Shown here: in pieces, positions 26,511 through 51,167 of the stretch | Position numbering within the stretch: position 1 is the first letter of the stretch | Layout of the letters: each line of letters opens with the position of its first letter | Source: Ceratodon purpureus | Lineage: Eukaryota > Streptophyta > Bryopsida > Pseudoditrichales > Ditrichaceae | Reading direction: 5' to 3' | DNA: 64,000 nucleotides | Assembly: GCA_014871385.1 (NCBI GenBank) | Contig: CM026424.1 | Location: 13,792,892-13,856,891 of the forward strand | Made by a program: the position numbers and the translations under genes | Notes under the pieces: model-generated | Databases searched by the model: none | The model's input: the letters and a program-made list of their open reading frames with translations, nothing else | What the model was told of the DNA's origin: nothing

Positions 26511-27193
26511 TAACACGCTCCCGCAAACATACAACAAACTGAGAGGATTGTCATGAAATTGATAAGTGAGACGTTCATTGTCACTTAGCAGACTATGTGT
26601 ATCCTCTCCTCTAATCCCTAAAACACTTGTATTGTGAGTGGTACCTGCTTTGGATCGTGCCAGTAACTAAATAAACTATAATATTAGTAAACATTTGAAT
26701 TATTGCCACTAGACCAAGGAAATGATGTCCAATCTCGATCTGTAAAGAGTATGACATAATATTATGTTTGAATTATGGAGATCCACTAATCATCTTTTTA
26801 TGACCTGAACGCAAATTAGAACGTCCAAGTTAATAAACTGTATCTTAACAAGCCCCTATTTAAATTAAAGGTCAATCCTAAAAGATTAAATTGACGGCTG
26901 CTTGTTATATTTGTAGTAGCAAAAGACAACCATATTGGCGCTCTCAGCCGCCTAATCACTTTAGTATGTCAGATACTAAGTAACTAAATTTTGTGCTGTA
27001 CAGGTCATGCAATATCCACCTGTACAAATTAATTATTTTAAGAACATATAAGGTGGCGATTTATTTAGCCCCTAAAGAACTATATAGTCCCTACAATGTC
27101 TTGGAGTCACAACTCATTGTATTGTAGTGTTCCCAGTCCACCTCTCCTCGAATGCATGATTGTACTTCTTCCATCTTCTATAGTACTCTTAGA
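26511..27193. promoter_or_regulatory. Divergent promoter region of the outer MULE
   Basis: This 680-base AT-rich gap separates the start of gene B (minus) from the start of gene A (plus). Both must be transcribed from it. The inner element has an equivalent gap of similar size at 33829-34464. TATATAG occurs around 27080, which could serve gene A. Confidence 0.45.
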
Positions 27194-28444
27194 ATGGCCT
27201 CTCTGCGAGCTCATGATGGAGGTATTCCATTAGTTATGTCTGTAGGTCCAGACAATAAAGTAGTTGTTGAGGAGCGATTGCTTAGTCTGAGGTTTGGATT
27301 TAGAGCCGGGACTATTTACGTGGAAGAAGAGGTTTTTGATGATAATGGAGAGATTCGTGAGTGTATATTTCAAGTGAAGGATAGTACACCTGATGGTTAC
27401 ATCTGGACTCTTAGCACTGGAATGTTCAAGGTCTATGGATTATCAGATGCACAGATGTCTGAGTCTACTGTTCTCTTGACCCCTCCTCCTTCAACGTCTA
27501 CGGTACCAGTTCCTGGTCGAGCATCTGTAAAAATTGAACCGAGTGACAATTCAGTGCATTTGTTGAGTGACTCGGATGATGACACTCACAGTGAGATCAA
27601 GTTAGGAGATACTAGGTCAAATCCATTCCAGTCTCGGGGGTCTCAGCAGTCAAGTCGTCCATCTCGACAGAGCAGTCGTTCTAGTATGTCCGCATCATTG
27701 TCTACAGGGCGTCCACCTATTCACCCTACTTCCCAGAAAAATAGTTCAAGCGTATTGTTTGCCATCAGAATGACGGCATCGAGAAGGGGCTCCTGATTAG
27801 AACTGTCGCAGATTGATTTTGACACAATTGACCATGAACAAGTGAAGTACTTACCGCCGGTTTATGACGGAGACAAGATTTTTGAGCTGCCCCCTTTACC
27901 TGAAGGAGTTCCAACTCAATTTGGAGGTAGCATGGACGGGATGAGCAAGCAGTATGATGGCCACACCTGGTGCAAGACCATGACCACGAACATCAAGAAC
28001 GAGTATGGCCTCACATATCGTAAGTCATCATGTACTGGACATTTAGAATGTCCCAACCGTAGTTGCGATTATATCTGCAGGAATAATGGAATAGTAAACA
28101 ACACAGAATGGTCAGGTGTAGCCTTAGTACCGTTTTCTGTAGGAGGATCTCCCACGGAGAAATCTACATTAGCATGCAAAGTATGTAAGACACCTCCAAT
28201 TTGTCTAGAACTGTGCGACGCTAGGATCTACCACGTGTCGTCCACAGATAAAGATGCTACCCGTGCGGCCATTCATTTAGGACGTCACAGACATCCTGTA
28301 TCTCAAGGTAGATGTCAGGATTCAATGGACGTAATGTTTGAGTGCATTGCTAAGGAGGTTCAGAAGACACCTAACGCCAAGAATTCGGCTATCGTCTTAG
28401 CGGCCAGCAAGCAGTACCTTGCAGATGCTCTGATCCGTCCGACT
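27194..28444 (+). pseudogene. Gene A of the outer MULE: transposase, 5' part
   Basis: Starts with MASLRAHDGGIPLVMSVG and aligns along its length with gene A of the inner element, for example GTIYVEEEVFDDNGE against SINIEEEIFDD. After an acidic and Ser-rich linker comes the WRKY/GCM1-type zinc finger region: YDGHTWCKTMTTNIKNEYG, CTGHLECPNRSCDY, and HLGRHRHPVS. One in-frame TGA at 27794-27796 interrupts the frame; the sequence context fits a CGA-to-TGA change by cytosine deamination. At 28445 the inner MULE begins. Removing it and one duplication copy joins LIRPT to AGGTHLRGAS in frame at 43984. Confidence 0.85.
28436..28444. repeat. Target-site duplication, left copy (inner MULE)
   Basis: CGTCCGACT here and at 43975-43983. 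The identity can be extended to CCGTCCGACTG, 11 bases, so the exact 9 or 10 bp that were duplicated cannot be fixed. Confidence 0.8.
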
Positions 28445-28667
28445 GGAGGGAAGCTTGTACGTGAGCTGAGAGCGCAGAGCGGAGAGCGCAGAGCGGAGAG
28501 CGGTGAGCGCAGATTTGGAGAGCGGAGAGCACAGAATGGGGGACAGAACCTAAAAATAGCACCTTCTTTACTAAAAATAAAATATAAAATAAGAAGATTC
28601 GAATATACTTAGTATATTTTTGGAAAGTTACTAATTTTAGTAACTTAATTGACCCTATAACCGTGGA
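28445..28667 (+). repeat. Left terminal inverted repeat and subterminal region of the inner MULE
   Basis: From 28463 about ten short units of the form GAGCGCA/GAGCGGA/GAGCGGT follow one another up to about 28535 (ending in GAGCACAGAAT). After an AT-rich spacer comes GACCCTATAACCGTGGA at 28651-28667. Both parts recur inverted at the right end. Confidence 0.8.
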
Positions 28668-28899
28668 CTAATTACAGTATTTTCATTGAATTTGTAGTTC
28701 ATATTCTCCTTTCTTGGTGATTAATTTTTTAACGTGCACCAATTACTATGCTCCAGCTCCTTCTAACTAGTTCAGGCATACAGTAATTCCCCTTATCTCC
28801 TTAAATTTATATGCAAATTACTACTTAAAATGTTTTGGTATTGAACCTGTGAACAGGGATCAAGTAACATTTAATTTCATAACATTTTCTTAACATTGC

Positions 28900-29260
28900 T
28901 AGAATTCATCCACTATAGTCTACATGCCTTTCTCCTTTTTTTTCTTTTTTTTAAAATTTTTTTGAAATTTGTTTTGTATTTTTTATAAAATTTTCTTTAT
29001 TCTATCTATCTTGTTAGAGGGGTCAAAAGCCTCCTTGTATTTGATTCTCTCCTTCATTTTATTTTCACAATCATTTTATTTTCACATTCAATTTGTTGAT
29101 CTCCTTCATATTATTTTCAACCTTCATTTTAAATATTGCTATTCTTTTCTTTAATCTTTTTAATTTCAATTTATATAAATGTTTTTTTTTTTTTTAATTT
29201 TTTTTTTTTTTTTCATTCTTAAATTTTTAAAGAAAAATTTAAATGCTAAATGACCTCTGC
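28900..29260. repeat. T-rich low-complexity tract inside the inner MULE
   Basis: Dominated by T runs and repeats of the words CATTTTATTTTCA and CTCCTTCAT. No coding potential. Confidence 0.7.
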
Positions 29261-29441
29261 TAAACCTTCATCTTTTTCCATTCGGTTTAGGAGGATGACA
29301 ACTTTTAAATGAATGAATAGCCGATTTTCAAGGGCGCCAAGCATCTTCTTCAGGGATATTTAAGATAAGAGTAGGGAATGTCTCTGCCTCTTTTGTATTG
29401 GTGTTATGTGAAGCTCTTTTCCGTAGTGCGGGACAGCAGCT

Positions 29442-29894
29442 ATGGAAGACGTCAGAGATATTGTTGTTTCACTCGCTGACGATGTTTGTCCATTTCAACC
29501 ATATGTTGAGGTGGAGGACGAAGAAGAGGTGATGGCCAACAGCCAAGGGCGTCCGTCGACATCGGATGTTGCGGTACAACCGGATGTAAGAGCTGACCCT
29601 CCACGTTCAGAAAATTCGGATGATATCAGAGTGCTGGAGGAGGACGCAGATGTGCCTTTGCAACCTCATGCATACTCCAAGGTTGGAAAGATCCCAAGGG
29701 GAACTTATTCCAGGGAATCAGTTAATCGGAGGCGGGGAGGTGGGCCATTGCTGAAACGATCATACCAAGGACATTTGCCAAGTGTGGGAACGAAAGTGAA
29801 TGCGAATGTAGTTTCTCCTGTAGTACAGTCAGCGGCTGGCAGTCCTGCTGATAGTGTAGTGGGCAACCCTAAACGTGTTAGGTTCGAAGATTAG
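29442..29894 (+). CDS. Gene C of the inner MULE: small acidic-to-basic protein of unknown function
   Basis: A 150-aa frame beginning MEDVRDIVVSLADD. The N-terminal third is acidic (EVEDEEEVM), the middle contains SENSDDIRVLEED, and the C-terminal part is basic (SRESVNRRRGGGPLLKRSY) with a final PKRVRFED. It is convergent with gene A, whose stop is 250 bases away. The outer element has no counterpart between its gene A and its right end. The composition suggests a disordered nuclear protein. A single exon of a longer gene is possible, but I found no partner exon. Confidence 0.45.
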   Translation: MEDVRDIVVSLADDVCPFQPYVEVEDEEEVMANSQGRPSTSDVAVQPDVRADPPRSENSDDIRVLEEDADVPLQPHAYSKVGKIPRGTYSRESVNRRRGGGPLLKRSYQGHLPSVGTKVNANVVSPVVQSAAGSPADSVVGNPKRVRFED

Positions 29895-30148
29895 GACATC
29901 TAATAACAAGTATATGTTTGCCTTAATAAAGGGTACATGTCAGGGGATACGAGGTATATAGTGCACTTCTTCAAGATACAATGTATTGAAATAGAATGCA
30001 ATCAATGTGAACGCCAAAGCCTTTAATATAATGAAAAAGTCAATACAGCTTCTGAATAGCTGACTTAGTACATGGTATATTACTAAAATCATTCACTACG
30101 TGACAAATGGCCATTGTGGAAATGGAAGTTCTAAAGTAGGAGGGCTAC

Positions 30149-33100
30149 CTACTTCTTCGCCAAGGGGTGACGCAAGATTCCACTCTCTAAGAGTAGCTTG
30201 ACCTCGTTGAAGCTGAAGGTAGGCGCATGGATGAAAAGCTCCGCTTCGGGATCATGGTTGCAGACCTTCAAGAATATGTAGTATAGGTGCTTACAATACG
30301 TGAACTGAGTCTTCCCACGGAACGTAGTCATTGTCTTCTTGAATGCTGGGCAAGTGCAACCAGGGTAAGAACTGATGGTAATCTGGTACCGTGTGATGTG
30401 TGGAGCGACGCCCGAATCCAGCCCAATGATGCAACCGTGGCCCGGCTGAGGAATCATGGTGACGGAACGGAGGCGCGCTTTAAGAGATTCGGAGGAGCCC
30501 ATGGAGAGTCGCTGCGCTTGATTGGGACGAGTGGCAGTGCGCTTCACCATCTTGCCGTCTCTCTTCCCTGGGTAGCGGTCAGCGTCTGCAGGGACTGGCA
30601 CTGCGCTGAGATTTGCAGGAGGCGGGGCAGAGGAGGAGAGGCGTCTTGGGGAGACCGGTTTCTTCTGCGGAAGTTGGAAGCCCGCTGCTTCGAGGGCAAG
30701 AATCTCAGTAAGTTTTAGGTTAGTACCTAGTTTCACTGGCCACACCTCTGGAATGGAGGGGAATTCCTGGTCCTTTGAGTAGTGTGCTACCCACTTGCGC
30801 TTAGAGCCTTTCACGCAACGCTCAATATCGTCGAAGCAGAAGAAGAACTCAGTCTTCTCCACTAGGTTCCTGCGATAGTTAGTCCAGAGCCCAGTGTAGG
30901 TCGGTGCAGCTGTGCAATGGGGCCCCCTGACGATTCTCTCAGTGCACTTCTTCTTCGTTTCAGCTCTTTGGGCCCAGCAGCACTTCGCAGAAAGTTTGTG
31001 AAGTCTCGAAATGTGCCACTCCTTCACGTCCACCTTGGTTTCTTGAACCGCGTTGACATGGCGAATGCCGCCCTTGTTCACAGGTGAAGGTAAAGGGGAA
31101 TCAACTTCCTGGGCAGGAGGTTGGGTACATTGTACCTCGGTGTCGTGTTCGGAGTCATCTTCCACAATGACGGGCATATGCATAGGGCGAGCCCTGACGG
31201 CACGTCTTGGGCCTCTTGGGCGTGAGAAGTTGGTCTTATCCGGGCGATGAGACTCCTCGTCAGCTCCGATAAGGACGTCGGCTTTTCGCTTCTGTGAACC
31301 GAAGACTTCCGCTCCAGGCATGATAGGCTGACGGGTGCAGAACTCATCCGCGCCTGGCATATCGAGCATGGGCTTGTCGAGCAGTGTAGGATTTCCCCAT
31401 TTCTTCGCGTTGCGTTCAGCCATCCGGAGCCTGAGTTCCTTCTTGGACGGTCCTGTTCCGCCGACGTCACCTTTGAGGAACTGGTAGTAGTTCACAACTT
31501 GTAGAAAAGCCCGAACGAAATCGTCCACGGTAGCAACGTACCGGTCGTTCCCATTGTTTCCTGAAGCTTGGAGCCACTTGTTGTGAACCGTTTCGGCGAG
31601 GTTACAGGTGGGCATCTCTGTGAGTTCTTCTTTCGTGAATTTCTGCAGATTTGACAGTAGATGCCGTTAGAGTCACGGATTAGAGTTTTGTAGATTTGGG
31701 ATAGAAAAACCAGTATGAAAAACATCAAAACAGAGTGTAGAGATCGTACCTCGGTCATGAATCCCCCCCACTGGCGGAAGCGATGGTGCCAGAATGACAG
31801 CCACTGATCGAGTTTGATGAGCCCGCTCTCGCCAACGACCCCGGTGGATGCCCACCATGCTCGCAACGCGTGGTACAGAGTTTCCGCCTCTGCCATGCTG
31901 GTCGCATTCTTGTACTGAGTGCACATCTTCTTGTGCTGTTCCCAGAGTTCTTCGGGGAAGTGCTTCTGCGTATACGCCACCATGTTCTGAGTCCAGTGGA
32001 ACAAGCACGACCTCTCCCGGTCCTCCATTGGGTCCTCTTTGTTGCCATTGCCGTAAAGGATCCGCACTGCATTCCAATTGGCCTGTGCGTTATCCGCCAT
32101 GAACCGCTTGAAGTTCGGCGCTGCAACGCCATTGATCTCCATGACCAGGTTCAGGTTTTTCCAGAAGACGAGCTGGGCGTCCGTGTCCTCGGACTGCATG
32201 TCGCAAGTGGCGATTGTCATCACGCGGCAGTAGGTGGCGTCGTACACATGGCACGCCATCGTCGACCAATCTTTGACGCGTTTGACATGGTCGAACATGA
32301 TCCATGCGTTCTCCAAATCGCCACCAGCTTGCATACGGCTGACCAAGTCGACACCACTGCCCGGCCCGACCTCCGACATCTTGAAGACAAAGACTTTGTC
32401 ACGCATGGATCCCTGACCAGGAAACCTATTCTCCTGGACATACGCCCAGAGACTGTTTCCACGGAGCTTGGTGATACCGTCCATGATTCCGTACCTTACG
32501 AATTTTTTGAAGGTGGCGACTTTGTTGCGGATGTTGGGCGACGCCATGTCTTTGCAACGATCCAGAACGGGAACCAGCTCCTCCATCGTCAGTTTCCTCG
32601 GTGGTGCATCCTCGGGCTGTAGAAGGTAGCTCCCGATGAGGAGTTTGCTCGCCTCCAGGACAACGGCGCTCTTCGTTGCTTTGTTGTTCATCTCTACCTG
32701 CTCTTCTATTAAGCTACTAATCTCTGCTTTAGAGTCTCTGTAGTCTCCTACTTTCACTGGATGATCATGTGTTCCTATGTGAATACACGCTCTAGTCTGA
32801 TTCGGTTTGCCCACAACGTAATAAATCTTAGCCTCGCATGTAGCTACACATGATGGAGGTTCTTTACATACCTTGCACACTAGCGTGGAGTCAGATGGAG
32901 GAGGCTGGTCCATGACAAAAGCTTGCAGGGTACAGCCTTCGAACTCAGTTTCGTTAACCTCGAAGATCTTGGGAACACGCTTCAGGAAGTCACACTCATT
33001 GTTGCTGCAGCGGAGCCATCCGACACAGGTGGAACTTCGAAAAGAGAGTCCGAAGTCGTTTTTGATGTTTGTTGTGATGGTCTTGGTCCACAAGTGTCCG

Positions 33101-33828
33101 TCGTATCGTTTGTCCATTCCCTGCATTGACTTGGCGGCGAGCTTAGAGGAACCTGCAGCAGCTGGGGGCAACTCAAAAAGAACTGGACCATCAAACTTCG
33201 CAGGCAAGTACTCTACTCTCTCGTGTCTAATAGTGGAATAGTCTATCTTCTTCAAAATGTTTTTGGACCCACGCGTCTTAGCAATCTCTTTAAGGAGCGG
33301 AACAATGCTAACTGTGACCTGGGACAATGGAGGAGACACATTGGAAGGAGGAACATCTGCGTGGACCTTAGGCACCAACTTGACGGGACTGACTTCGTCA
33401 TCAGAAGAGAGAGATATGACGGTCGGAGGAGGTTTCTCTACATCTGAAGTCTCGGTACCAGGCTCGACTTTGACTTTGACATCACGAGGTAAGGGAGTCT
33501 GAATTGTGCAAGTAGAAGAGCGACGGGGGGTGAGGATCTCAGTGGATGCAGCCATAAGAGAATCAGTAAGACCATAGACTCTATAGGATCCAGGGAGGAG
33601 TCTCCACTGCAACATGTTGTTCTCATCTCTCACTGAAGGTTGCCCGAGGGTGTGGGTAACCTCGGCAGTCACGTCATCAAAAATCTCCTCCTCTATATTG
33701 ATGGAATCCTCACGGAAATGGAATCTGAGACTCAGGCGAAGAGAGGTGACTGTAGCTAGACCATCGTCATCTACGCGAAACCTAAGAGGGATGCCCATGC
33801 CTTGGGCGTAGAGACAGACCATCCCCAT
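30149..33828 (-). CDS. Gene A of the inner MULE: transposase with WRKY/GCM1-type zinc finger, DDE-type core and SWIM zinc finger
   Basis: Two exons, 33828-31750 and 31642-30149, join in phase and code for 1,190 aa. It should cut and paste the element by binding the GAGCGG-rich ends. Order: an N-terminal region; an acidic linker with VISLSSDDE, a likely SUMO-interacting motif; a zinc finger region at about residues 245-355 (YDGHLWTKTITTNIKNDFG, CVGWLRCSNNEC, HIGTHDHPV); a DDE-like core at about 500-620 (WIMFDHVKRV, CDMQSED, FMADNAQANW, then CLFHW, a C-x2-H as in MULEs); and a SWIM finger at about 1120-1142 (CTCPAF, then YCKHLYYIF). This is the FAR1/MULE order. The start MGMVCLYAQG is chosen by alignment with the outer copy; an upstream in-frame ATG at 33936 would add 36 residues. 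A KDZ-type transposase is the main alternative. Confidence 0.87.
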
Positions 33829-34464
33829 ATTCGCAGGCAACTCAGAGATACTAGAGGAAGGACTAAGAAGAGGCAGTAGTAACAAAGGGAAATTGCGTGA
33901 GCAAAGTGAGAGGAAAGATGCATCGTTGTTGATCATTTTATTGAAGTTGGAATGTGCATGTGGACGACTAGATAATAATTCATTCTGTTAGATAACGAAT
34001 GTACGATTTATGAGAGAGACGGCGCTAACTAATCTGATTGCCAGTTTGTGCCTGTCTTAGTATAGCAATTAAGATTTTTACTACTAAACTTGTATAATTC
34101 GAATCGTGGAGCTGATTTAATTTGTCATGATGTATTATAAGATTAGAATGAGCCGTCTTTTAAATTCTACATTTAAAACAATGAAAAATAATAAAGGCAT
34201 GCATTAAAGTACTTGATTCAAATCTTTTAATATGTAGTGTGCTTGGAATTTTTCTTAATATTTAAAGGTGATAATTTTGTCTTTACTTCAAAGAGGAATA
34301 TTAAGGGTACTCTTAAAATTAAGAAGGTAGAAAAGGTGTCAGTTGTTAAGATGCTATATCAACTTAGGGTTGTATCGAAATAGTTGTACGTTATAGGTAT
34401 TTAAGCTGGGAGGAAGTTTTGCAGAGAGATTATTTTTGAGAGAGTCCTCCTTGTGGTTAGACAC
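33829..34464. promoter_or_regulatory. Divergent promoter region of the inner MULE
   Basis: AT-rich gap between the starts of gene A (minus) and gene B (plus), in the same position as 26511-27193 of the outer element. No defined promoter motif could be assigned with confidence. Confidence 0.45.
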
Positions 34465-37400
34465 ATGAAGCAGAGCGGAGGGCCATCTCCCTCTACTTTT
34501 GTTACTCCGAAACGTAGAAGAAAACCAGGTCGTACAGATTTTACGGATAGAAGAGCTAGGAAGAGGAGAGAGTCACGTAAGAAGGAAGTATTTAAAAGTG
34601 ACCATTTAAGTGCTCCCGTGAAAAGGAGAGGTTTAGGTCTGCCTGTTGCTTTGAAGTTTTGTAGCATTCGTAAAATCATTCTAGAGTCTATAGAGGAGGA
34701 GCAAGAAGACGTTTTAGAGAATACCGTAGTCGCTAATCACGAGCAGGAACACGAGGTACTGTTAAGTGGAGTTGAACGACGCGAGGCCATGACGGATGAA
34801 TTAGAGTTTAATTGTAGTCAAAGAGAAGAGTCACCGCAACCATCAATCCTCTTTAATGACGCTTCAACAAGGGGGGCGGATTCTCAGTCTGATCAATATT
34901 TTAATTCCAACGAGGTAAGTATTTCTAAAAGATTTTGAACATGAGTGACGAGATTTTTATGACTCCTTGTTGTATTCGAGTTAGATATGAGATATAATAT
35001 TAAGATATTGTAATTGTAGTATGAATAATTAAAAGACTAATCTTCAAGTCATAATTGGTTGTGATGGATATTATCTAAATCTAGTATTCAAAGAGCGAGG
35101 AAAGAATCAAGGAGGTGAGAGATTCAGTTGGGGAGGATAGCGTCTTCGAGCACTTGCGGGTGGAGGCGAGGCGAGCAAGGGAGGGAATCCTTCAAGCAGG
35201 GGAAGGAGGCCGAGCTATGGCGGGGAGGGAAGGGGCGAGGGCAGGGCGGGTACGAGCGGATCAAGGCGAGGACGCTGCTGAGGCTGCAGCTGGAAGAGGA
35301 GCAGGGATGGACGTCGAGAACCTAGGGTTCGAAGGTCGACCGGGAGGGGGAGTGGTCGTGCAGAGGGATTTGCCTCAGAGCGAAGACGAGCAGAGGAGTG
35401 GAGGCGAGGAGCAGGTCCCGGTCGAGGACGAGGAAGAAGAAGATGAGCAGGTCGAAGCTGCCACGGACTTGGAGGAGGTACGAAGCTGCCACGGACTTGG
35501 TGCATGCTCGCATATTTGTCTTTGTGGGTTTTGAATGTGTTAAGGGCGTACGGGGGCAATGAATGTTAAGGTCGTACGGAGGTTTGAATGTGTGATTGTC
35601 GTACGGGGGTTTGAATGTGTTAAGATCGTACGGGGGTAATGAGTGTTAAGGTCGTACGGGCGTTTGAATCTGGTGCATAGGTTTGACTTTGTAATAATTG
35701 TTGTTTATGTGGGTTGTGGGTACTGGGTACTAGGTACCGAGAAGGTTTTTGGGGTTGTAGTCTAAATTTTTTGGGGTTGCGGTTGTACTACGGAATTTGT
35801 TGGGAGAAGTTTATTGGGGATTTGAGTTTTTTGGGGGTTTCAGAAGTGCTGGTTCTGATGCGGAGGCTCACCCCAAGGGGTGGGCCGAGGATGCTTGAGA
35901 TTGATTCCATTTTTTTTTTAATTTTGTGAGCTGCGGACCTACTGTCGTTACAGACAGTAGGCCGCGAAGCTCAATGTATGAATGACATGCGGAGGCTCAC
36001 CCCAAGGGGTGGGCCGAGGATGCTTGAGATTGAATCTTTTTTTTTTTTAATTTTGTGAGCTGCGGACCTACTGTCGTTACAGACAGTAGGCCGCGAAGCT
36101 CAATGTATGAATGACATGCGGAGGCTCACCCCAAGGGGTGGGCCGAGGATGCTTGAGATTGAATCCTTTTTTTTTTTAATTTTGTGAGCTGCGGACCTAC
36201 TGTCGTTACAGACAGTAGGCCGCGAAGCTCAATGTATGAATGAGATGCGGAGGCTCACCCCAAGGGGTGGGCCGAGGATGCTTGAGATTTATATCTCTTT
36301 TTTTTTAATTTTGTGAGCTGCGGACCTACTGTCGTTACAGACAGTAGGCCGCGAAGCTCAATGTATGAATGAGATGCGGAGGCTCACCCCAAGGGGTGGG
36401 CCGAGGATGCTTGAGATTGAATTTTTTTTTTTAATTTTGTGAGCTGCGGACCTACTGTCGTTACAGACAGTAGGCCGCGAAGCTCAATGTATGAATGACA
36501 TGCGGAGGCTCACCCCTAGGGGTGGGCCGAGGATGCTTGAGATTGAATCCTTTTTTTTTTTAATTTTGTGAGCTGCGGACCTACTGTCGTTACAGACAGT
36601 AGGCCGCGAAGCTCAATGTATGAATGAGATGCGGAGGCTCACCCCAAGGGGTGGGCCGAGGATGCTTGAGATTTATATCTCTTTTTTTTTAATTTTGTGA
36701 GCTGCGGACCTACTGTCGTTACAGACAGTAGGCCGCGAAGCTCAATGTATGAATGAGATGCGGAGGCTCACCCCAAGGGGTGGGCCGAGGATGCTTGAGA
36801 TTGATTCCATTTTTTTTTTAATTTTGTGAGCTGCGGACCTACTGTCGTTACAGACAGTAGGCCGCGAAGCTCAATGTATGAATGACATGCGGAGGCTCAC
36901 CCCTAGGGGTGGGCCGAGGATGCTTGAGATTGAATCTTTTTTTTTTTAATTTTGTGAGCTGCGGACCTACTGTCGTTACAGACAGTAGGCCGCGAAGCTC
37001 AATGTATGAATGAGATGCGGAGGCTCACCCCTAGGGGTGGGCCGAGGATGCTTGAGATTGATTCCATTTTTTTTTTAATTTTGTGAGCTGCGGACCTACT
37101 GTCGTTACAGACAGTAGGCCGCGAAGCTCAATGTATGAATGAGATGCGGAGGCTCACCCCAAGGGGTGGGCCGAGGATGCTTGAGATTGAATCTTTTTTT
37201 TTTTAATTTTGTGAGCTGCGGACCTACTGTCGTTACAGACAGTAGGCCGCGAAGCTCAATGTATGAATGGGATGGGCGGAGGATGCTTGAGATTGATTCC
37301 ATTTACCAATAAAAGACCATTTCAGCATGTAGAGAATATGGGTTCGACTCCCCGTGGCCGGAGCTACTGCATGAAAGCTTTAGCAATGATGGCCTCATTT

Positions 37401-40400
37401 TTAAATTACTCTTTCTTATTATGTTTTAAATTGATGGAGTTTCCTTGTTCTTTGCCTTCAGCTTCTACTTAATCCTGTATATATCGCTTAATTACTTGTT
37501 GATTTCTCTTAAACCTTTATTTTGAATGGAGGTCTTAATGGCTGTTTATTCACATTTATTTGACTTCATAGTTGTTGTATCACTGATAGTCAATTTCTTT
37601 GTTTATGAATTAGGAGTCTTCTGAGGATAATATGGGGAGCCAACGTGAAGTTCCAATTCAAGCTGAGACCGAGGTACATTATTAGTTCTTCTTACTTGTC
37701 TCATTTTTTTAATTTATTGCATACAATTATTTTAAGGGTGGAAAATAACCCTCTCTTCATTTCTTCTACTCTAGGTATATTCGGATGCTCCTGAGATGTC
37801 CGCGACCTCCCCCATTTCAGTTATCAATGTTTCCGATCTCTCGGATTCATTTGATCAGCCTTATTGTACCTGTGATGTAGCCAACCCTGTAGTTGGAGAT
37901 AGTGGACCTTTCGAGGTCCACTCTCCACAGTACATGCCTACTTCTCCACAGTACATGCCTACCTCACCACTGTATGAGCCTACGTCCCCGCCATACCTGC
38001 CCACTTCCCCTCTAGAGGGCTCACCGCCTATGTCTCCACCCTCTCCTTCCTCGCCTATCAGAGTGAGAAGGCCAGCCCATGTGGTGTTTGCTCTACCGGC
38101 AATACTGCCGTGCCCGGTTCAGCAAACCAGGCGGTTTTGGAGGAGGCGCCGTCACTGGAATTGTAGACAGTCTAAGCAGTACTATAGCCGAGCATCCCGT
38201 AGATAGATCCCTTATGCTCAGATGATGTTTGAGTTGTTACAAAAAAGATGACAGTAGGAAGATATACTGTTCCTTCTTTTTACATACTTGTCTTCTTCGC
38301 ATAACTTCCTTTGATTGTGATCTCTCTCTTAATTCGAACTCCTCTTCGCAGGTTACGCTAACACAAGATGTCTTGGCAAAACCATCTTGTCCAACTGACT
38401 TGAAGACTGTTATAGAAGGGGAACTGCAGCATCGTATACAATACAAGCTGGACTCCAACGCCGTCATCAACAACCTCAGGATCAAACCCACGCATAAGTC
38501 GCGAATGCTGGTGCCCCTATGCAGGATGATCCCAATGGCCAAGGTTAGACCAGTGGGCGAAATGGGGGTACAACACTTGGAGCGGGAGTTTGTTAAGGGA
38601 TATAGAGATGGGGACCGCGTCATGTACATCTCCATGTACAACACTGAAGAGGAAACGAAGAATGTGACGGCGGAGATCATGGCCACTTGGGGCCCTTTAT
38701 GGACGGCAGCGAGTGATCGTTTTGATGATGAGATCTCTGGGGACGAGGAGTTGATGCAGTTCTCCCACAAGATGTTTTATGTCTGGGAGGGTAATCACCG
38801 CCTTTCCGCATGGCTAAGGCATATCAACGAGCATCATGCAGACGACCCATCCTGGCACATCTCTGTGCATTGCATTGTACTTGACCCCCGTGGCCATGTG
38901 GGCAATCTCTTGCACGCCATGCACGACATCAATTGGTACGTTCAAAAATCTTTGGCACTTGTTGTCCATTTGAAGTCTTTTTCTATTATATTTCATTCTA
39001 CTTACTTACTTATTTGATATTCAGGTCGACTGAGAATGACCACGTGAAGAATAATCTCCCAGCAAAACTGTTTCGAATCCGCTCATTCGGAATGATGAAG
39101 TTGGAGGAGTTCAAGGACCTCCTGTACCCGGAAGAATACGATGCTTGTTTGAAGAACAAGCCACCGAACCCGTCATGGTTTCCCTTAACTACTCGAGTTT
39201 TCATCGCATTTCTTTACCGAGTAAGTTTTTGACCTCCTCTCTGTCTTCGCTCTTTTTATCTCCTCTCATTCTCCGACTATAATTTCGTTCATTTATGATT
39301 TCCCTAAAAAGTGGTTATCCTTCTACAGCGGGAAATTGCTGCAGCCTCCGATGAAGCAGCTAAGGCCTACAAGGAGAAGACACCGGCGGATGAACAGACT
39401 GCATCTGCGGTTTGGGAAATCATGAATGAAGCGTCTGAGAAAATGGTGGACTCCATCAAGAATAAGGACTTCACCAAGTACTTGGCAATTGCAAATCCCA
39501 AGAACGGTGACGATTTCTTGAAAGAGGTGACTCCTTCATCTAATTTCGGATAGTATTTTCAATTATTACAACATTATGCAATTATAGTTTCTAATACTTC
39601 TATACTCTTGGCAGATCAATCGGCATTACAGTCAGAACTCTAAACCTGAGATGTCCCTTGATAAGCTCCAGAAGATCTGTCCGGCGGCTGTTGAGCCCAA
39701 ATACAAGGTTCGGTGGCTGAGGTGGTGGAACTCATCTCTGAGTTCCAGACTATCATACAGATTTCCAAAGCCCGGATTCAAGGATACTGATTTCGACCCC
39801 TGGTTGAACAGGGCATCATTCTGGGCTGGGGTATGGTTTCGAAATATGCCTTACCAATTAGAAAGTGCTTTCTTAATTCTTCTCTCATTGGTACTTATTT
39901 GAATTCTGTGTTACAGTTGGAGGAAGCCGTCGTCAACGAGGTCGAGGACATATTCAAGTCGGAGAACCTCGATATCGATTGGAGGGCATTTCCTGATGTC
40001 CAACAGCCGGGTGACTATGTCGAGAGTTCACGTATTATGTTATGGGACAAGGCCTTCCCTACGTTCATTGGGAATAAGGCTGAGAAGCCCTTTGACAAGA
40101 AGTCCAACTTCGCTGAATTCCCTGGAACCGCTGAAGTTGTCAAGAGGGTTATATTCCGGTATGTCACAAAACTATATTGCATTTGCATATTATAATTCGC
40201 TATTGCTTCTTATGCTACTAAGCTTCTAAATTTCTTCCCTTAGGTACTTCAAGCGAGAGCTTCTTCTGAAGGGGGCCATCACGGTCCACCAGCTCCCCAA
40301 CTACTTCCTTTCTTGGACGCAGACAACCTCGGACCAGTGTATCTATTCTCCCCAGCAGATAAAAAGGTACAAAGCTCCCCACTTGCTTGAGGGATGTTGG

Positions 40401-42319
40401 TACCTTGATTGTTTTCGCGGTTTCACTATTGACTCTGAGGTGGACATCAAGACTTTACACGATGGGGGTAAGGTGGTGGTCGAAGACACGGTGGACGGTC
40501 CTGAAGATGACAATGGCCCTGAAGACCAATCATCGGCTCCTCCACCGAAGAAAGGGAGAGGAAGGCGACTGAAATCTTTGCGATCACATTCACAAGCTTC
40601 ACAGCAAACTGGTGCGGCGTCTTCCGCTCCAGAGCAGACGGCTCCAGAACCCTCTCCGGGTAATGTGGTTACGAAGCCTTCTTCAACTTCTTCACCGGGT
40701 CCTTCCTCGATCAGTGCTTCGGAGATCTCCAGAGGTCTCCTTGAGCAGAGGAAGGCCAAACTATATCCCCAACCAACTTCTTCCGCTGGAGCTTCGATTT
40801 CCTCACAAGTTTCCGTCTTCAACTCATCTGTGGATTCCCTGTTGCGGCGAAATCGGAGACAGGAGAGAAAAGGTGGCGACCCGGATTGGATCAAGACTCA
40901 AGACTTCATTCGCAAGGTTTGTCCCTATATTTTGACATTTAATGGATTCTGCCACCTGTAGTCCCTATGTAATTACTAACTCTCGTTTCTTGTTTCCTCA
41001 AGTTTGGAGCAGGCCGCGAAAACGAAGTTCCGGACCGGTGCAAACAAGAGAACCATCTGGGAGTCGACTTGATCATTGCCGACATCCCTGAGAATCTTCC
41101 CGTCCCATCCGTTTCCGTTCCCCCCACGAGTATTCCGCCTTGGAACTCTCGCTACAAGGATTATTTGTACGACATCTTCCATTTTGCAGATGAATTCCTG
41201 CAGAAAGATGGTGCCCTCTGCCTCATCTACAACACTGATCAGAAGCTGGCTAAGGATATCGAGGAAGAAGCTGCTGCTGGTGGATACGTGCTGTTCAAGG
41301 ACTGGTGGGGTGTCAATGTACTCGGCCTGACTTCTCCAACGAACCCCGAGAACTTGGTAATTTCCCTAAACATACCCTTCCCTTTACTGATTGATAACCC
41401 TTCCGCTTAATTTTACTCACTAGTTTTGCTTGACTGCAGACTATGCGGTTCTAGATTCGCGTCTACGTTCGTAGTGGCAGTACTTTCTCCTTCCAGACGA
41501 AGAAGGAAGACCTGATACATGGGCTCCTTAACATTACCGTGAGTGATGCCATTTTCAACTTCACCGATGTGGATTCGCAGCTCATGAATGGGGAGGTGCC
41601 GTGGAGAGGCGCAAGGGAGAAATCCATTGACATGATGCAGGGCATACTTGAGGAGCTGTCAAAGCCCGGCGACATAGTTGTTGATTGGAATGCTGGGACA
41701 GGTAACTATTCATGCATATCTTTGCTGAATTATTCCTCTCGTTTTTACCACAGTTTCTCATTTCTTTGTATCTCTCCGAGTTTCAGGAGCCTCCATCAAG
41801 GCTGCCCAGGCTATTGGTCGCCACATTCTCGCTTTTGAGGAGGACGAAGCCATATTCAACGCCCTTCTCAAACCATCCGCCATGGGCCCTCCTAAACATC
41901 CAAGGCCGGCAGCAGCAGGCGAAGCGCCTCCAAAGAGACCAAGACCTGATAAGTGGTGTAAGTCTTCTATTCTACGTTCAAATTATCCAAGCATTACTTC
42001 TCTTTGCAGCTCTACGTACTCGATGTAACCACAGTCGGTTCTCTATTGCAGAGTAGTTTCAGCATCACCGCCACGTGTGCCAAGTGCAGTGTCCACTCCA
42101 TTGTGGCATCTTCATTCCAGCCCGATTCAGCCTTTCATACTTCCGGACTACGCAGAGGACTTAGCACAGGCGTTTCAATCTGGAGCCCTTACATATGTTC
42201 CTAGTCGGCCAACTACTTTTGATCCCAGAGCCCTTCTATTCGTCGATGACGAGGCGGTAGAAGGAGATTCGGAGTCATCTAGTTCTGAGAGTGGAAGTAG
42301 CGATGGTAGCATGTTTTGA
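34465..42319 (+). CDS. Gene B of the inner MULE: ParB domain / beta-class amino-methyltransferase-like protein
   Basis: Fourteen exons with GT-AG borders keep phase throughout: 34465-34914, 35094-35477, 37614-37673, 37775-38062, 38352-38935, 39025-39220, 39329-39526, 39615-39830, 39917-40158, 40244-40916, 41003-41356, 41455-41701, 41787-41957 and 42054-42319; about 1,442 aa. The first four are phase 0 and code for disordered sequence, including four Pol II CTD-like heptads. Exon 5 holds a ParB/Srx-type domain: [14 protein letters not shown] at about residue 447 and [11 protein letters not shown] at about 542. The C-terminus has [14 protein letters not shown] (motif IV position, about 1122), VPWRGAREK, and [17 protein letters not shown] with [12 protein letters not shown] (motif I, FxGxG, about 1291), as in N6-adenine/N4-cytosine DNA methyltransferases. 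If the nearer acceptor (exon from 41440) is used, a TAG at 41452-41454 stops translation; acceptor CTAG at 41451-41454 avoids it. Activity on DNA is inferred. Confidence 0.8.
35535..35675. repeat. Minisatellite of about 35 bp around GTCGTACGGGGG
   Basis: About five imperfect copies of a unit containing TCGTACGGGGGTTTGAATGT and GTTAAG. It lies in intron 2 of gene B. Just before it, CGAAGCTGCCACGGACTTGG is directly repeated across the end of exon 2. Confidence 0.75.
35858..37303. repeat. Tandem array of 11 units of about 129 bp with two hairpins per unit, plus a partial unit
   Basis: Units begin (ATGCGGAGG) at 35858, 35987, 36116, 36245, 36375, 36500, 36629, 36758, 36887, 37015 and 37144; a partial unit starts at 37272. 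Each unit has an imperfect palindrome around CACCCCAAGGGGTG, then a T tract, then a longer hairpin with stem CCTACTGTC/GACAGTAGG, loop GTTACA, and outer pairs GAGCT/AGCTC. In three units the first centre is CCCCTAGGGG, a perfect palindrome. Units differ mainly in the T tract and a few bases beside it. The array sits in intron 2 of gene B. Its role is unknown. Confidence 0.92.
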
Positions 42320-42832
42320 GTTTGAAGGAGGCTTCGGTCTTTCATTGTTTTTATTGGATTTGCTTTGATTTAATTGGAGTTCATTGCGTAATCCTTCGTC
42401 TACTCTACTTCCCTGAACCTAAACTTGTTATAATTCTCATGTCCAATTTGTCTCCGTGTTTGTAAAGGATGAAATGTCACAACTGTAATGCTCCAAATAT
42501 AATATGAAGAATGAAATGTTACAAAAGAAAGGCTCAAATATAATATTGTGCTGTTAATTATATTTTACTCATTCAGAATCCCACATTTGCATAGCCATGT
42601 TACCTATTCTCGAGTTGGTGTACATCTTGGTTTCTGCTACTCGATTATTGTACACGAACTCTGAAATATTCCACGGACTTCTAAGACCATTTCTTTTAGT
42701 TGGTTTTTCTTTTCTTATTTCTAGAATCATCTATATTATCTAAAACCGTCATGCTGGAATACTCGTATCTAGATCCAATGAATGACCAAATCTAAAGGAT
42801 TGTATTCGAACACCCCACTAGACTTCACAGTA

Positions 42833-43432
42833 CTAATCCTTCGAAGGATATACAGTCCAACTCTTGTCCATATCAAACCAGCAAGTTTCGCCATCCGATA
42901 TGATCACTTCGGGCAGCTGAACAACTGGATTCTCATCGACGTTTGATAGCAAGGGATACGGGATTAGGGACAACTCCATAATACGGAGAAGCTCATTGGT
43001 ACAAAGCACTGTCCAACGCCATTCACCTTCACCAACATGGAGGCTTCCGATGTGCCTAAACGGTGGCAGGTCCATGCCTCGTTCCCTGGCGCGCTCCACC
43101 TCCAGCAGCCACGGCCGCAGCTCCTCATAACTCGCCGGTGCCTTTGGGGGCAAACCTACAGCCGCTCTCGTCCTCCTGGATCTCGCATTACACACCTTCG
43201 GCATCGCGCAACACACTGAATTCTTGTAGTCTTCAAACGTTACAGTCAAGCTTGTAGATTGACATCCCCGAACTCCTACGCTACCTTCGCATACAGCACA
43301 GCATGCCAAAGACTGTATGACTATCCTAATACGCCACCTAGAGACAAGCTCAAGAAACCAAGAGTGACCTCCTTCTCTAGAACCCAGCTTACCAAGTGTT
43401 GTTTCATGATGAAAATCTCCTACTTGTATCAC
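42833..43432 (-). CDS. Gene D of the inner MULE: hypothetical protein
   Basis: A 199-codon frame on the minus strand between the end of gene B and the right inverted repeat. The part from MPKVCNARSRRTRAAVGLPP to the stop looks most protein-like (about 124 aa): a basic start, then ASYEELRPWLLEVERARERG, then a region rich in Trp and hydrophobic residues (VGEGEWRWTVLCTNELLRIM) and an acidic end. The upstream 75 codons may be non-coding. The outer element has no counterpart near its left end. No family was recognised. Confidence 0.4.
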   Translation of the reverse strand: MIQVGDFHHETTLGKLGSREGGHSWFLELVSRWRIRIVIQSLACCAVCEGSVGVRGCQSTSLTVTFEDYKNSVCCAMPKVCNARSRRTRAAVGLPPKAPASYEELRPWLLEVERARERGMDLPPFRHIGSLHVGEGEWRWTVLCTNELLRIMELSLIPYPLLSNVDENPVVQLPEVIISDGETCWFDMDKSWTVYPSKD

Positions 43433-43855
43433 TCAAATTCAGATGCTTCGCTGCCTAGGAAGAGAGAGTAATCTTCGATGAAGACAAGGACTCTGACAAG
43501 GTATATCTTGGTTTCAGCAGTCAAGATATTATACACGAATTTTGAAATATTCTAGGAAGTTTTCAAACCTTGCCTCCTTTATGTTCTGTGATATTTGTTT
43601 TTTTCCTTGTGCATTTACATAATCCTATGAAAGAATTATTTGTTTGATCTAAAACTGAACGCCTGATCATTGTATCTTGCCTAAACCCATGACGAATCTA
43701 AAGGAATGTATGCATGACGTCATCATGACATCAGCCCTAATTTGTATCTTAGAGAACAAACGTAATAAATTCTTACCAGAGTTAACCCTAATTTCCACGG
43801 TAATATACTCTTTTTCTAAAAAAAGTGTCAAAATTAAGCCTTAATTTAGTAATTT

Positions 43856-43974
43856 TCCACGGTTATAGGGTCTACTTTGCTTTTGAAAATTTTCCTAATT
43901 CTCAATTCTGTGCTCTCCATTCTGCGCTCACCGCTCTCCGCTCTACGCTCTCCGCTCACGTATGAACTTTCCCC
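43856..43974 (-). repeat. Right terminal inverted repeat and subterminal motif of the inner MULE
   Basis: On the minus strand, GGGGAAAGTTCATACGTGAG is followed by GAGCGGA/GAGCGTA/GAGCGGT units, GAGCACAGAAT and, further in, GACCCTATAACCGTGGA. The order matches the left end. Confidence 0.8.
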
Positions 43975-43983
43975 CGTCCGACT
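43975..43983. repeat. Target-site duplication, right copy (inner MULE)
   Basis: CGTCCGACT, identical to 28436-28444. Downstream the outer transposase frame resumes. Confidence 0.8.
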
Positions 43984-46313
43984 GCAGGAGGTACCCATCT
44001 ACGGGGAGCATCTATGGATGCTGTAATGGACCAATTTGAGACTCTTACATCACCAAACATACAGAATTTTGTTTCTGGCTCCAAGAGATTTTTCCGCCAA
44101 GGAAGAGGAGTGACAGACAGCATCCTGGAGCTGAAGGACTATTCGAACTTTGATTTCATCCACCGTAATCAATTCCCTGGACAGAACGAAGGGAAGGTAT
44201 TTCTGTTCAAGATGTCCACTGATCGTCCAGGGAGCGGTGTCGATTTGGTGAAACGCATGCAGCCTGGAGGCGATCTTCAAGACTGCTGGATCATGTTCGA
44301 CCATGTCAGGCGCGTAGCGGACTGGACTACTATGGCATGCCACGTTTATGACAGTAAGTACTGTAAAGTTATGACGATTGCCCTTTGTGACATGCAATCT
44401 GAAGATGCTGCTGCTCAGGAGTTATTTTGGCTTCAGCTTAATGAAGTTATGCGGAAGAACGGCCATGAAAATACAAATTTCAAAGGATTCATGGCTGACA
44501 ACGCTGGAGCCAACTGGCACGCTGTTCGTAAGGTGTACGGGAACGGCGATCCCAATGATCCAATGGAAGAACGGGAACGCACTTGTCTTTTCCACTGGAC
44601 AAAGTGCTTTGCAAAGGGCAACTTCTCGGAACATCTTGCCAAGCTTTCAAGACCAACACAAAGCATTGTGCAAAGAATGGAAGGACGCAAAGACCCAAGA
44701 GGAAGCAGACGCGCAGTACAACGTCATCCGGGGGTGGTGGCTTTCGTCAGGCGCCACAACTGAAGAAGGAAGGGGTCATCTTAATGATTGGATGGCTTTC
44801 TGGCACTTTCGGTACTTACAATGGGGAGGCGCAATGCAGCTTGTAAGTTGAATTGTCTTTAAACCTTCCATCAAGTATTAGTTAATTTTAATCATTTTTT
44901 ATAATCCTGAAAATGACATCATTTGTTTATTTATTTTTTTAGGATCTTACCCTGGACGGGAGAGCCGACATGCCTTCCTACAACCTTGCCGAAACCGTCC
45001 ACAACAGATGGCTTCAACAATCAGGAAATACAATGACATGTTTGTACGAGGCAACAGTGGATGATATGATCCGAGCATTGATGCAGATAACAAGTTACCG
45101 GTCTTGGCTTAAGGGAGGAAAGGGCGGTAAAGGTCCGGACAAAGCAGAACTTCGTTTGCGCCACGCTCAACGCTCTGGTGACCCCAAGTTGATTGCTGAG
45201 GCAGTGAACTCCTACCCGGGAGCCGAGGATATATTGACGAAGAAAGGAGGCTTGGAAGGTGCAGAGATCTTTGGATCTACAAAACGGAAGTTGGATTTGC
45301 CGCCCGGTTCCAGTCATGACTCTCATCGTTATGATACAGTGAATTACTCCATTCCTCGTGATGGCACGAGATCCACCAGAGCACGCATTGAGGAGGCTCT
45401 TTCTCAACCGGACTCGGGAGTTCAACACACTACTTCAGTGCAGGAGACAGATTGCGACCCCTCTAAGTGGCACATTGCCAGACTGTCCGGCAAGTCGAAC
45501 CGAAAATGTCAAGCAATGCAGGCTCATACGAATGAGAAGTGCGATACCCGAGTGCGCCGAGGTACACATGGTACGCCTGCTCCTACCTATGTAGGGCTGA
45601 AGAAGGAGTTCAGAACCGATCGCCAGATTTCTACTGACTTTTGGTTTTGCGCCGATGACATTAATAGATGTGTGAAGGGCACAAAGAAGTCGTTTGTGAT
45701 CGATTGGCCATCTATCCCGCAGACTTGGCCTGTGAAAAGGGGCACGAACTTGACCATCAAAGAGATTTTGGATCTTGAAGAAGCCGGGTTCCAACTCCAA
45801 CAACGTGGAGTACTATCACCTCGACGTCAGTTCCAGGTCTCTGCTAATATGCCACTTCCAAGGAGTCATTTCCCGGTTCCTGTAGATCCTGATACACACC
45901 CGACAACTCGAAACGGATATGCCATCAGGAGAAGTCCTGACGCTCCTACCTCCGACCACCGCAACAAGTGGAGCAGCGCGGGTCTCATGAACAAGTATTG
46001 GATAACAAGTGTCACATCGATCCCATATCCAGGATTTGGCTGCGTCATCTCCTTGAAGAGTCCTAGTGAAACCATATATTGTATCACCATCACGAACTTC
46101 CCTGGATGTACTTGCCCCGACTTCATGAAAATGACTTCAGAAACCCTTGGCAAAAGAGGCCAGTGGAAGTACTGCAAACATGTTTATTATATCTTCCGCT
46201 ATCTATGTGAGATGGATTACAAGGTTGATACTTTTATGCACGACCCTAGCTTCAGCTTCAACGAAGTTATGCGTGTTCTGGAGATGGCCAAAGTTGCTGA
46301 ACCGCTTGAGTAG
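43984..46313 (+). pseudogene. Gene A of the outer MULE: transposase, 3' part (DDE-type core and SWIM)
   Basis: Resumes in frame after the inner element (AGGTHLRGAS, then FETLTSPNIQNFVSG). It carries the DDE-like core (WIMFDHVRRV, CDMQSED, FMADNAGANW, CLFHWTK). Shortly after CLFHW, near 44600, homology moves to another frame (ILPSFQDQHKALCKEWKD), so there is one frameshift. The exon ends at about 44842 (GTAAGT); the next begins at about 44943 (DLTLDGRADMPSYNLAETVH) and runs to the TAG at 46313. That second exon (about 457 codons) is open and ends with the SWIM finger (CTCPDF, then YCKHVYYIF) and SFSFNEV, as in the inner protein. The intron position is the same as in the inner copy. Confidence 0.87.
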
Positions 46314-46499
46314 TTTTTCTTATGGTTAGACTTTGAAATTGAGTGACCAGTACATTCAAGAATACATTATATCAATAGCGGAATTGATTTGTTTTTGCTT
46401 TGTGCTGGATTTGGAATCCGCAGAACATAAATAAAGGTCACTATTTTATTTAGTTATTGGTCACTTCTCAAACGTGTTCGTGTGAAAATTAAGAAGACC

Positions 46500-46575
46500 A
46501 ATATTTTGAGGTCATTAGGGAATATTCTCTCCTCGGATCCGAGGAGAGAATATTCCTTGATGACCTCAAAATATT
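46500..46575. repeat. 76-bp near-perfect palindrome
   Basis: Centre CTCGGATCCGAG at about 46532-46543. The arms extend 38 bases each with two mismatches (outer ends AATATTTTGAGG and its complement). It lies between the outer transposase stop and the right inverted repeat. It could be a cruciform or hairpin, a 3'-end signal, or the remains of a small foldback element. Confidence 0.85.
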
Positions 46576-46696
46576 CCTTTTCCACTTCCGAAACCACGAA
46601 AATGAGATAAAAAAAATTCAAAAAAAAAATGATATCCATTCTATATTATACCCTAAACAGTTAGATATTTCCTGAAACCACGCACATTTCATTCAT

Positions 46697-46890
46697 TCCA
46701 CGGTTATAGGGTCTACTTATTTGGCATTCGTATATTCAAGCAATGTGTCCCAAATCGCTCATCATTGTGTGATTGCTCTCAAAAAAATTCAAAAAATATA
46801 CGAAAAACTCAAATTTTTACACAGAAACTGAATTTTTATGGGCTCACCGCTCCTTGCTCACCGCTCACCGCTCACAAGATAGCGTCGCTG
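46697..46890 (-). repeat. Right terminal inverted repeat and subterminal motif of the outer MULE
   Basis: On the minus strand: CAGCGACG, then CTATCTTGTGAGCGGTGAGC and two more GAGCGGT-type units, and about 150 bases further in the motif GACCCTATAACCGTGGA (46697-46713). Confidence 0.8.
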
Positions 46891-46900
46891 TACATGCTCA
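46891..46900. repeat. Target-site duplication, right copy (outer MULE)
   Basis: TACATGCTCA, identical to 15795-15804. Confidence 0.85.
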
Positions 46901-50108: not shown

Positions 50109-50618
50109 ACTAATTCCGCAGCCTCACTTTCTTTTCACTCCCAGAAAGGCTCCACAGATAACTCTGAAAACATTGCTCACCGACGACCAAGCAAAGAATG
50201 AAAAAGACCGAATTCCACAGATATCACTTCCTCACGGTGCCAAAGCAAAGTTCCCGCCCCGCAACCCAACCATGGATTGGCATTTGGCAGCCACAACTTA
50301 CGCATAGCGACTCACGCCCCTGGCGACGAAGCTCATCCGCTTGGACAACAAGTTGTTCCGGAGCCCACACACTGCACAGCATCCAGATCAGACGCCGCTC
50401 CCTCTGTGGACCACACTGCCCGTCTCCCATGAGCCAATCGCTTTCCACCACCATGGTCCATGCCTGCCACAATGGTGGCCATTGGCCAATCCCGCACGCA
50501 TTGCTATGTCTGCATGAGTTGCTACTTATTCGCACTCGCGTCGCGCTTTCCACCATCTCACAGCACTTTCTCAATCTCCTTGCTCTACCAGTTCACAGTC
50601 TGCTAGCCAGCCTCCGCG

Positions 50619-51167
50619 ATGGCTTCCATCGTCGCTGCCTCCTCTGCCGTGGCCCCTGCGGCCTTCGCAGCCGCCTCGTCCGCGGTGTCGACCTCGGAGT
50701 CTAGCTCCGTGAGGGCCTTCTCCGGCCTCAAGAGCGCCACCCTGTTCGCCTCCAAGAGCCAGACCTTGAGCTCGGTGCAGAATGGCAGCCGCGTGCAGTG
50801 CATGCAGGTGTGGAACCCGATGGGGCAGACCAAGTTCGAGACGTTCTCGTACCTGCCGGCGCTGACGGACGACCAGATCGCGAAGCAGGTGGACTACATG
50901 ATCCAGCAGAAGCTGATCCCGTGCCTGGAGTTCGACATCAACTCGGAGGGCGTGTCGCGTGCGAACAACCAGAGCCCCGGGTACTACGACGGGCGTTACT
51001 GGACGATGTGGAAGCTGCCGATGTTCGGGTGCAACGACGCGGCGCAGGTGCTGCGCGAGATCGGGGAGTGCAGGAAGGAGTACCCGAACTGCTTCGTGCG
51101 CGTGTTGGGGTTCGACAATGTGAGGCAGGTGCAGATCTGCGGATTCTTGGTGGCCCGCCCCAACTAA
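50619..51167 (+). CDS. rbcS: RuBisCO small subunit, copy 1
   Basis: Intronless 182-aa protein. Residues 1-61 ([20 protein letters not shown] onwards) are a Ser/Ala-rich chloroplast transit peptide. The mature part starts at [19 protein letters not shown] and includes [19 protein letters not shown], the hallmark of plant small subunits, and ends in LVARPN. It assembles with the plastid-coded large subunit into the CO2-fixing L8S8 enzyme. The sequence is strongly GC-rich with G/C in third positions, unlike its AT-rich surroundings, which fits high expression. Its 3' flank (51168 to about 51752) is nearly the same as that of copy 3, but its 5' flank differs from copies 2 and 3. It differs from the other copies at a few synonymous sites only. 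Confidence 0.97.

Follow-up and report, generated by a model that had tools for sequence, protein, structure and literature searches.

Transposon-encoded genes that associate a ParB-like domain with a DNA amino-methyltransferase have been published for the Ectocarpus element Sola1-1_Ec32 and, through the works cited in the same source, for green and red algae, and the ParB/methyltransferase of Sola1-1 has been suggested to modify the DNA of its element (PMC12477816). A survey of the ParB fold from 2025 reports that fusions with PF01555 are more frequent in phages and that the form met most often in eukaryotes is sulfiredoxin (PMC12704722). The VANDAL transposons encode an anti-silencing protein, VANC, described as binding short motifs in tandem repeats, some of them located in its own intron (PMC5735166). 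The present work deals with gene B, a gene occurring in two related copies in a stretch of 64,000 nucleotides from Ceratodon purpureus (Bryopsida; GenBank assembly GCA_014871385.1, contig CM026424.1, positions 13,792,892 to 13,856,891), hereafter the window, and borne by two nested DNA transposons with terminal inverted repeats, the inner one lying inside the outer one. Judged from its sequence, the C-terminal domain of the predicted gene B protein descends from the beta-class N6-adenine/N4-cytosine DNA methyltransferases, and its catalytic motif IV is altered in both copies.

With respect to Sola1-1_Ec32, the likeness consists of a ParB-like plus N4C/N6A methyltransferase gene located in a DNA transposon (1104 residues compared with 1439 for gene B), and the difference lies in the Sola1 type of that element, whereas the Ceratodon elements are MULE-like with duplications of 10-11 base pairs and reside in a host with plant-type RbcS genes; in addition, motif IV of gene B reads D[IV]PE and its ParB part is unproven. 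The phage and bacterial ParB/N6_N4_Mtase fusions, known from the survey (PMC12704722) and from four of the phage loci compared here (L002, L003, L005 and L006), display a PF01555-type domain after the ParB domain. Gene B would share this domain order, provided that its region around the motif GNHR is ParB, but it has about three to four times their length, possesses a long middle part without a family match and has no DPPY. VANC of Arabidopsis VANDAL resembles gene B as an accessory gene of a MULE with tandem repeats in its own intron; in a comparison made by description, no methyltransferase domain is mentioned in the available text on VANC (PMC5735166), whereas gene B has one. The N4CMT of bdelloid rotifers is likewise a bacterial-type amino-methyltransferase domain occurring in a eukaryote and tied to transposon control, but it belongs to an active host protein with an SPPY motif and a chromodomain which is reported to add to transposon silencing rather than to serve a transposon (PMC8885841). 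Finally, the TET/JBP-carrying fungal DNA transposons also have a base-modification enzyme aboard, described as a dioxygenase and not a methyltransferase, and in fungal hosts (PMC12730594). The general idea is already published, and what is new here is the MULE-type element, the plant-type host, the altered motif IV and the two diverged, constrained copies. A previous interpretation of this DNA made from its letters alone, the sequence-only reading, knew of no described plant transposon of this kind; the algal precedent of Sola1-1 dates that statement, which holds at most for land plants, no description of a plant-MULE gene of this type having been found in an open-access literature whose coverage leaves aside the key green and red algal references.

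The inner gene B extends from 34465 to 42319 on the plus strand and diverges from the inner transposase, which is encoded by the opposite strand of the same transposon. Its splicing was predicted from the genomic sequence, and the 14-exon model of the sequence-only reading was recovered, with 1439 codons plus a stop open and GT-AG borders at 13 of 13 introns. The outer gene B, found on the minus strand at 16979-20958, has six exons that together keep 962 codons open, and the pairing of gene B with a transposase, which the same reading had announced for both nested MULE-like elements, is indeed present in both. Once spliced, the inner protein matches the PF01555 profile (N6_N4_Mtase) with 30.6 bits (4e-7, profile positions 164-218 of 221) and the outer protein with 36.8 bits (5.4e-9, positions 30-217), both above the curated Pfam cut-off of 26.7 bits; single exons gave E values of 0.025-0.045 only, and passing the cut-off required the exons to be joined. 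Among the PHROG families, gene B retrieves phage DNA methyltransferases with E values down to 1.1e-9, and a profile built from the two gene B sequences retrieves seven PDB sequences with E values not exceeding 1, of which six are named DNA amino-methyltransferases, with 5hek (1.4e-4) and CcrM (4.8e-4) as the best matches.

The order of the motifs is that of the beta class. In the inner copy, the motif IV region occurs in exon 11 (41003-41356, plus strand) and is followed by the X/I region (GAREK...) in exon 12 (41455-41701, plus strand), and by ASIKAA and the C-terminal acidic strand HILAFEED in exon 13 (41787-41957, plus strand). Exon 12 is open only from 41455, a start at 41440, after an AG located 15 bases upstream, including an in-frame stop. 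In the outer copy, a large exon (17283-18915, minus strand) comprises the middle region and the methyltransferase core with a motif IV of the form DVPE, and another exon (16979-17190, minus strand) carries the end of motif I (GASIRAS) and the acidic strand (HVIGFESD). At the GxG motif for the binding of S-adenosylmethionine (SAM), the inner gene B has AGTG and the outer one ASTG. All motifs quoted by the sequence-only reading were located where it had placed them, namely GNHR at residue 541 (exon 5), a motif at residue 1288 at the end of exon 12, GASIKAA at residue 1298 across the splice of exons 12 and 13, and HILAFEED at residue 1310 (exon 13). An AlphaFold model of the methyltransferase region without the last exon is poor (mean pLDDT 43.4); when this low-confidence model was submitted to Foldseek, the best 24 of the 50 matches listed were DNA methyltransferases and included five with an E value of 0.001 or below, with M1.HpyAVI and CcrM ranked first and TM-scores by query of 0.24-0.34 only, and among the viral models the match of rank 8 was named ParB/Sulfiredoxin. 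The structural comparison would thus back the assignment while falling short of proof, and the C-terminus of beta-class type claimed earlier is borne out by the Pfam matches of both spliced copies, with which the PDB, phage and fold searches concur.

The motif IV reads ADIPENL in the inner and FDVPEDL in the outer copy and, as D[IV]PE, fails the catalytic pattern [DNS]PP[YFW], a glutamate occupying in both copies the position where an aromatic residue is expected. Both PF01555 matches begin beyond motif IV and the PDB profile covers it by a 0.6-bit stretch only. The register was taken from the methyltransferase of phage locus L001, which matches the inner gene B domain at 4e-6 when the phage collection is searched and at 3e-12 in a small pairwise comparison. 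In its alignment with residues 25-229 of that domain, ADIPEN faces ADIPYN and the change from Y to E is the sole difference in motif IV. A tyrosine occurs in all six phage methyltransferases read over this motif, in the form DPPY in four of the six (L002, L003, L005 and L006), DIPY in L001 and CPPY in L008, the motif order of which differs; in the remaining 13 of the 19 phage loci the motif was not seen in the protein read, most of these being ParB proteins without a methyltransferase domain or incomplete. In L001 (2703-6894), the methyltransferase sits between frames resembling an S-adenosylmethionine synthetase and a C5-cytosine methyltransferase, both recognised by eye. The forms of motif IV listed in the rotifer study are SPPY, DPPY, NPPY, DPPY/F and DPPW, and the replacement of SPPY by APPA in N4CMT, which changes Ser and Tyr together, abolished methylation (PMC8885841). 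Because D[IV]PE stands against an aromatic residue in the phage relatives, and because of the loss observed with APPA, ordinary amino-methylation by the gene B protein appears unlikely, and gene B is classed by sequence with N6_N4_Mtase and not as an active methylase. The DNA-modification module proposed by the sequence-only reading keeps its homology and loses part of the credit given to its modifying activity.

The explanation which comes closest to that proposal, a working ParB and amino-methyltransferase depositing N6-methyladenine (6mA) or N4-methylcytosine (4mC) on the DNA of the element so as to mark, protect or de-silence it, has to be taken seriously since both copies exceed the curated PF01555 cut-off and have retained the SAM-binding motif and the acidic strand, since the idea has been suggested in print for Sola1-1 (PMC12477816), and since N4CMT offers the example of a eukaryote using a bacterial amino-methyltransferase (PMC8885841). 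The absence of the aromatic residue from motif IV in two diverged copies, while the tyrosine is present in six of six phage methyltransferases, makes this explanation rather improbable, although it is the best placed of the alternatives.

The block FYVW[ED]GNHRxxAW is common to both gene B copies, as FYVWEGNHR in exon 5 of the inner copy (38352-38935, plus strand) and FYVWDGNHR in an outer exon (20549-20958, minus strand) with no AG before 20958 to set its 5' end, and resembles the P-motif (GxxR) of ParB and sulfiredoxin, in a strand and helix context recognised by eye. Searches of this region in Pfam and NCBIfam returned no ParB match, a profile search of the PDB returned three unrelated chains (best E 0.13), and tblastn against phages returned four records, all of DNA polymerase, at E 4. 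A hidden Markov model (HMM) of 18 phage ParB domains, run over 801 open reading frames of the window, placed neither GNHR exon among its best 12 and scored both below 0 bits. The PHROG family 1033, "ParB-like partition protein", appeared for the outer copy only, at E 0.35 and as the second of two weak families. With hhalign, the comparison with the 18 phage domains gave P 0.071, and 200 column shuffles reached null scores of up to 22.18 and null probabilities of up to 13.04, compared with observed values of 14.35 and 0.78. Excision of a 43-column insert gave P 0.041, with 13 of 300 shuffles scoring as high, and the maximum obtained from 60 excisions of the same length made elsewhere (16.19) exceeded the observed 14.40. 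The AlphaFold model of the region is useless (mean pLDDT 36.9), and a Foldseek search with it yielded no match at E 0.001, ParB being absent from the 50 matches listed. Of the two homologies put forward by the sequence-only reading, that to PF01555 passed the profile searches in both copies; for the ParB/Srx-like domain, the GNHR motif is present and conserved, and the domain is unproven, with no significant profile or fold match, no Pfam match and structural models of low confidence. Mostly because of the published precedent, we lean somewhat towards a ParB nature for the GNHR region, and gene B is not filed in the ParB/sulfiredoxin superfamily, membership being not proven.

The inner and outer gene B proteins share 33% identity over 883 aligned residues, and the five introns of the outer gene correspond in position and phase to introns of the inner one (5/5). 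The conserved middle region of the inner copy, for which no Pfam family scored above the cut-off, is encoded by exons 6 to 9 (39025-39220, 39329-39526, 39615-39830 and 39917-40158, plus strand), and its best conserved part in the outer copy is an exon at 19043-19261 (minus strand) showing 48% identity to inner exon 8. The identity between the two genes amounts to 0.45, 0.55 and 0.31 at codon positions 1, 2 and 3, composition alone accounting for about 0.26, and of 98 fourfold-degenerate codons that match at positions 1 and 2, 33 also have the same base at position 3. Since the silent sites are almost saturated and the protein is conserved, gene B has, by this comparison, been under purifying selection in these elements for a long time. 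Scans of non-eukaryote collections with short, near-exact peptide words confirmed no gene B relatives in viral contigs or prokaryote genomes, a result which excludes close relatives only.

The inner element (28446-43973, 15.5 kb) is flanked on both sides by the exact 11-base target site duplication CCGTCCGACTG (28435-28445 and 43974-43984, 11 of 11 bases), and the outer element (15805-46890, inner element included) by the exact 10-base duplication TACATGCTCA (15795-15804 and 46891-46900, 10 of 10 bases). The terminal inverted repeats of both elements carry heptamer arrays. In the outer element, the left repeat (15805-15903, plus strand), with a GTGAGCG array, agrees with the right one (46792-46890, minus strand) at 72% over 100 bases and 90% over the first 50; in the inner element, the left repeat (28446-28537, plus strand), with a GAGCGGA array, agrees with the right one (43903-43973, minus strand) at 79-84%. 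The pattern GAGCGGNGAGCG, with one mismatch allowed, has 19 matches in the window, 18 of which fall within the four element ends, compared with a whole-window expectation of 0.22. Target site duplications of MULEs measure about 8-11 bases, a range that includes those of both elements.

The inner transposase is an intact two-exon gene of 1190 residues on the minus strand, exon 1 (31750-33828) carrying two candidate catalytic D residues and a C(2)H motif, and exon 2 (30149-31642) the E of NLAETVHN and a SWIM-like motif, GCTCPAF...YCKH. Read by eye, the series comprises D513, D579, C608-x2-H611, E710 and the SWIM-like motif at residue 1121, a D/C-H/E pattern which we take to be characteristic of MULE-like transposases. 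The inner element was inserted inside the outer transposase gene, of which the 5' part (27128-28445, plus strand) aligns with the inner transposase in 427 columns at 38% identity and the 3' part (43985-46313, plus strand) is open in pieces only; the joining of the two flanks produces an open frame of 475 residues running through the insertion junction. The MULE domain PF10551 matched neither transposase, whether the inner open reading frames were searched at E 1 or central pieces of the two at E 10, and the SWIM profile reached E 0.1, weaker than its cut-off, in searches that used pieces and single open reading frames and in which the HMMER filters drop most matches above 0.1. Since Pfam made no MULE call on either transposase, the label is founded on the target site duplications, the terminal repeats and the order of the motifs, and both elements are filed as MULE-like only.

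Intron 2 of the inner gene B contains a 27-base tandem array of 5.4 copies (35526-35669, plus strand) and a 129-base tandem array of 11 copies with 96% matches and two palindromes per unit (35857-37274, plus strand), a 261-base stretch of which, folded as single-strand DNA, gave a z value of -9.5. The possibility that this intron array is a conserved target of the gene B protein was considered and dropped, the outer element being devoid of it.

The explanation preferred here, to which we give a probability of roughly 0.45, is that gene B encodes a self-targeting accessory protein of the anti-silencing or chromatin type, which possibly is no longer a methylase. Gene B would be the accessory gene of a two-gene, cut-and-paste, MULE-type transposon family, in which selection keeps it alongside the transposase. 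Its protein, the middle of which may contain a ParB/sulfiredoxin-like domain, would recognise the DNA of its own element, with two kinds of candidate site, the heptamer arrays carried by each of the four ends and the intron array of palindromic repeats in the inner element, and would counter silencing by the host, keeping the element expressed or mobile. Self-targeting and anti-silencing are proposed because of the analogy with VANC, which binds repeats, some in its own intron. A role as a DNA- and SAM-binding factor would be more likely than that of an ordinary methylase, given that both copies have a glutamate in place of the aromatic residue of motif IV and that the SAM-binding end is intact. 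Several points weigh against this explanation: the ParB homology of gene B falls short of significance; the 129-base array occurs in the inner element only; gene B is seen at full length in the inner copy only, since the outer one contains an in-frame TAG (16782-16780) beyond the methyltransferase domain and has an ill-defined 5' part; and an unusual motif IV might still permit activity on some unknown substrate. A more far-reaching version, according to which a streptophyte MULE-type family has made a prokaryote-type ParB-plus-methyltransferase into a non-methylating, SAM-binding "dead writer" that selection has kept for a time longer than the silent sites register, that loads on the repeat arrays of its own element and that prevents silencing, is regarded as doubtful.

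The gene B protein could also work together with the transposase when targets are chosen, ends are bound or the element is excised, and leave silencing untouched. Gene B is kept beside the transposase in both elements, and the heptamer arrays at their ends could bind such a protein; however, no observation made here indicates such a role, for which a methyltransferase fold would be unexpected, and this co-factor function is held to be improbable, a little more so than active self-modification. That gene B is a captured gene in decay, or a passenger that does nothing for the element, as its altered catalytic motif and the partly damaged outer copy might suggest, is very improbable given that both copies are open over the 883 aligned residues at 33% identity, with near-saturated third positions and common introns.

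Very few accessory proteins, one of which is VANC, have been characterised in molecular detail as means by which plant transposons escape silencing. If the self-targeting, anti-silencing explanation were true, gene B would represent a second type of anti-silencing protein, based on the fold of a bacterial DNA methylase and having broadly similar counterparts in transposons of brown, red and green algae, and this would suggest that large DNA transposons repeatedly come with proteins of this sort. The altered motif IV permits a clean test, the alternatives being 4mC/6mA on the element DNA or an action without methylating, and these marks, if found there, would bear on the dispute over their occurrence in eukaryotes.

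The other exons of the inner gene B, all on the plus strand, are exon 1 (34465-34914), which encodes a basic N-terminus, exon 2 (35094-35477), exon 3 (37614-37673), exon 4 (37775-38062), exon 10 (40244-40916) and exon 14 (42063-42319), which encodes an acidic tail and the stop. Exon 4 encodes Y-x-P-T-S-P-x heptads through a 21-base tandem repeat, and these resemble YSPTSPS, the repeat of the C-terminal domain of RNA polymerase II; they could be a mimic of this domain or chance low complexity. The outer gene B further comprises exons at 19916-20125 and 20213-20414 (minus strand), and a basic stretch, MRHMRDGEE...RGRGRRRGS, is found on the minus strand at 26223-26510 in a placement like that of the N-terminus of the inner gene B. 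The outer element also contains, on the minus strand at 21976-23856, a G+C-rich open frame of 626 residues with no match in Pfam, which is perhaps another inserted element that severed the 5' part of the outer gene B.

A near-perfect palindrome of about 76-90 bases is located at 46493-46582, near the right end of the outer element. A COP1-like RING segment was recognised by eye at 1837-2169 on the minus strand. Copies of the RbcS gene occur at 50615-51168, 56523-57232, 60014-60734 and 63395-63998 and are 95-100% alike over their common parts; they are of the plant type, with the Arabidopsis small subunit as their best match in the PDB.

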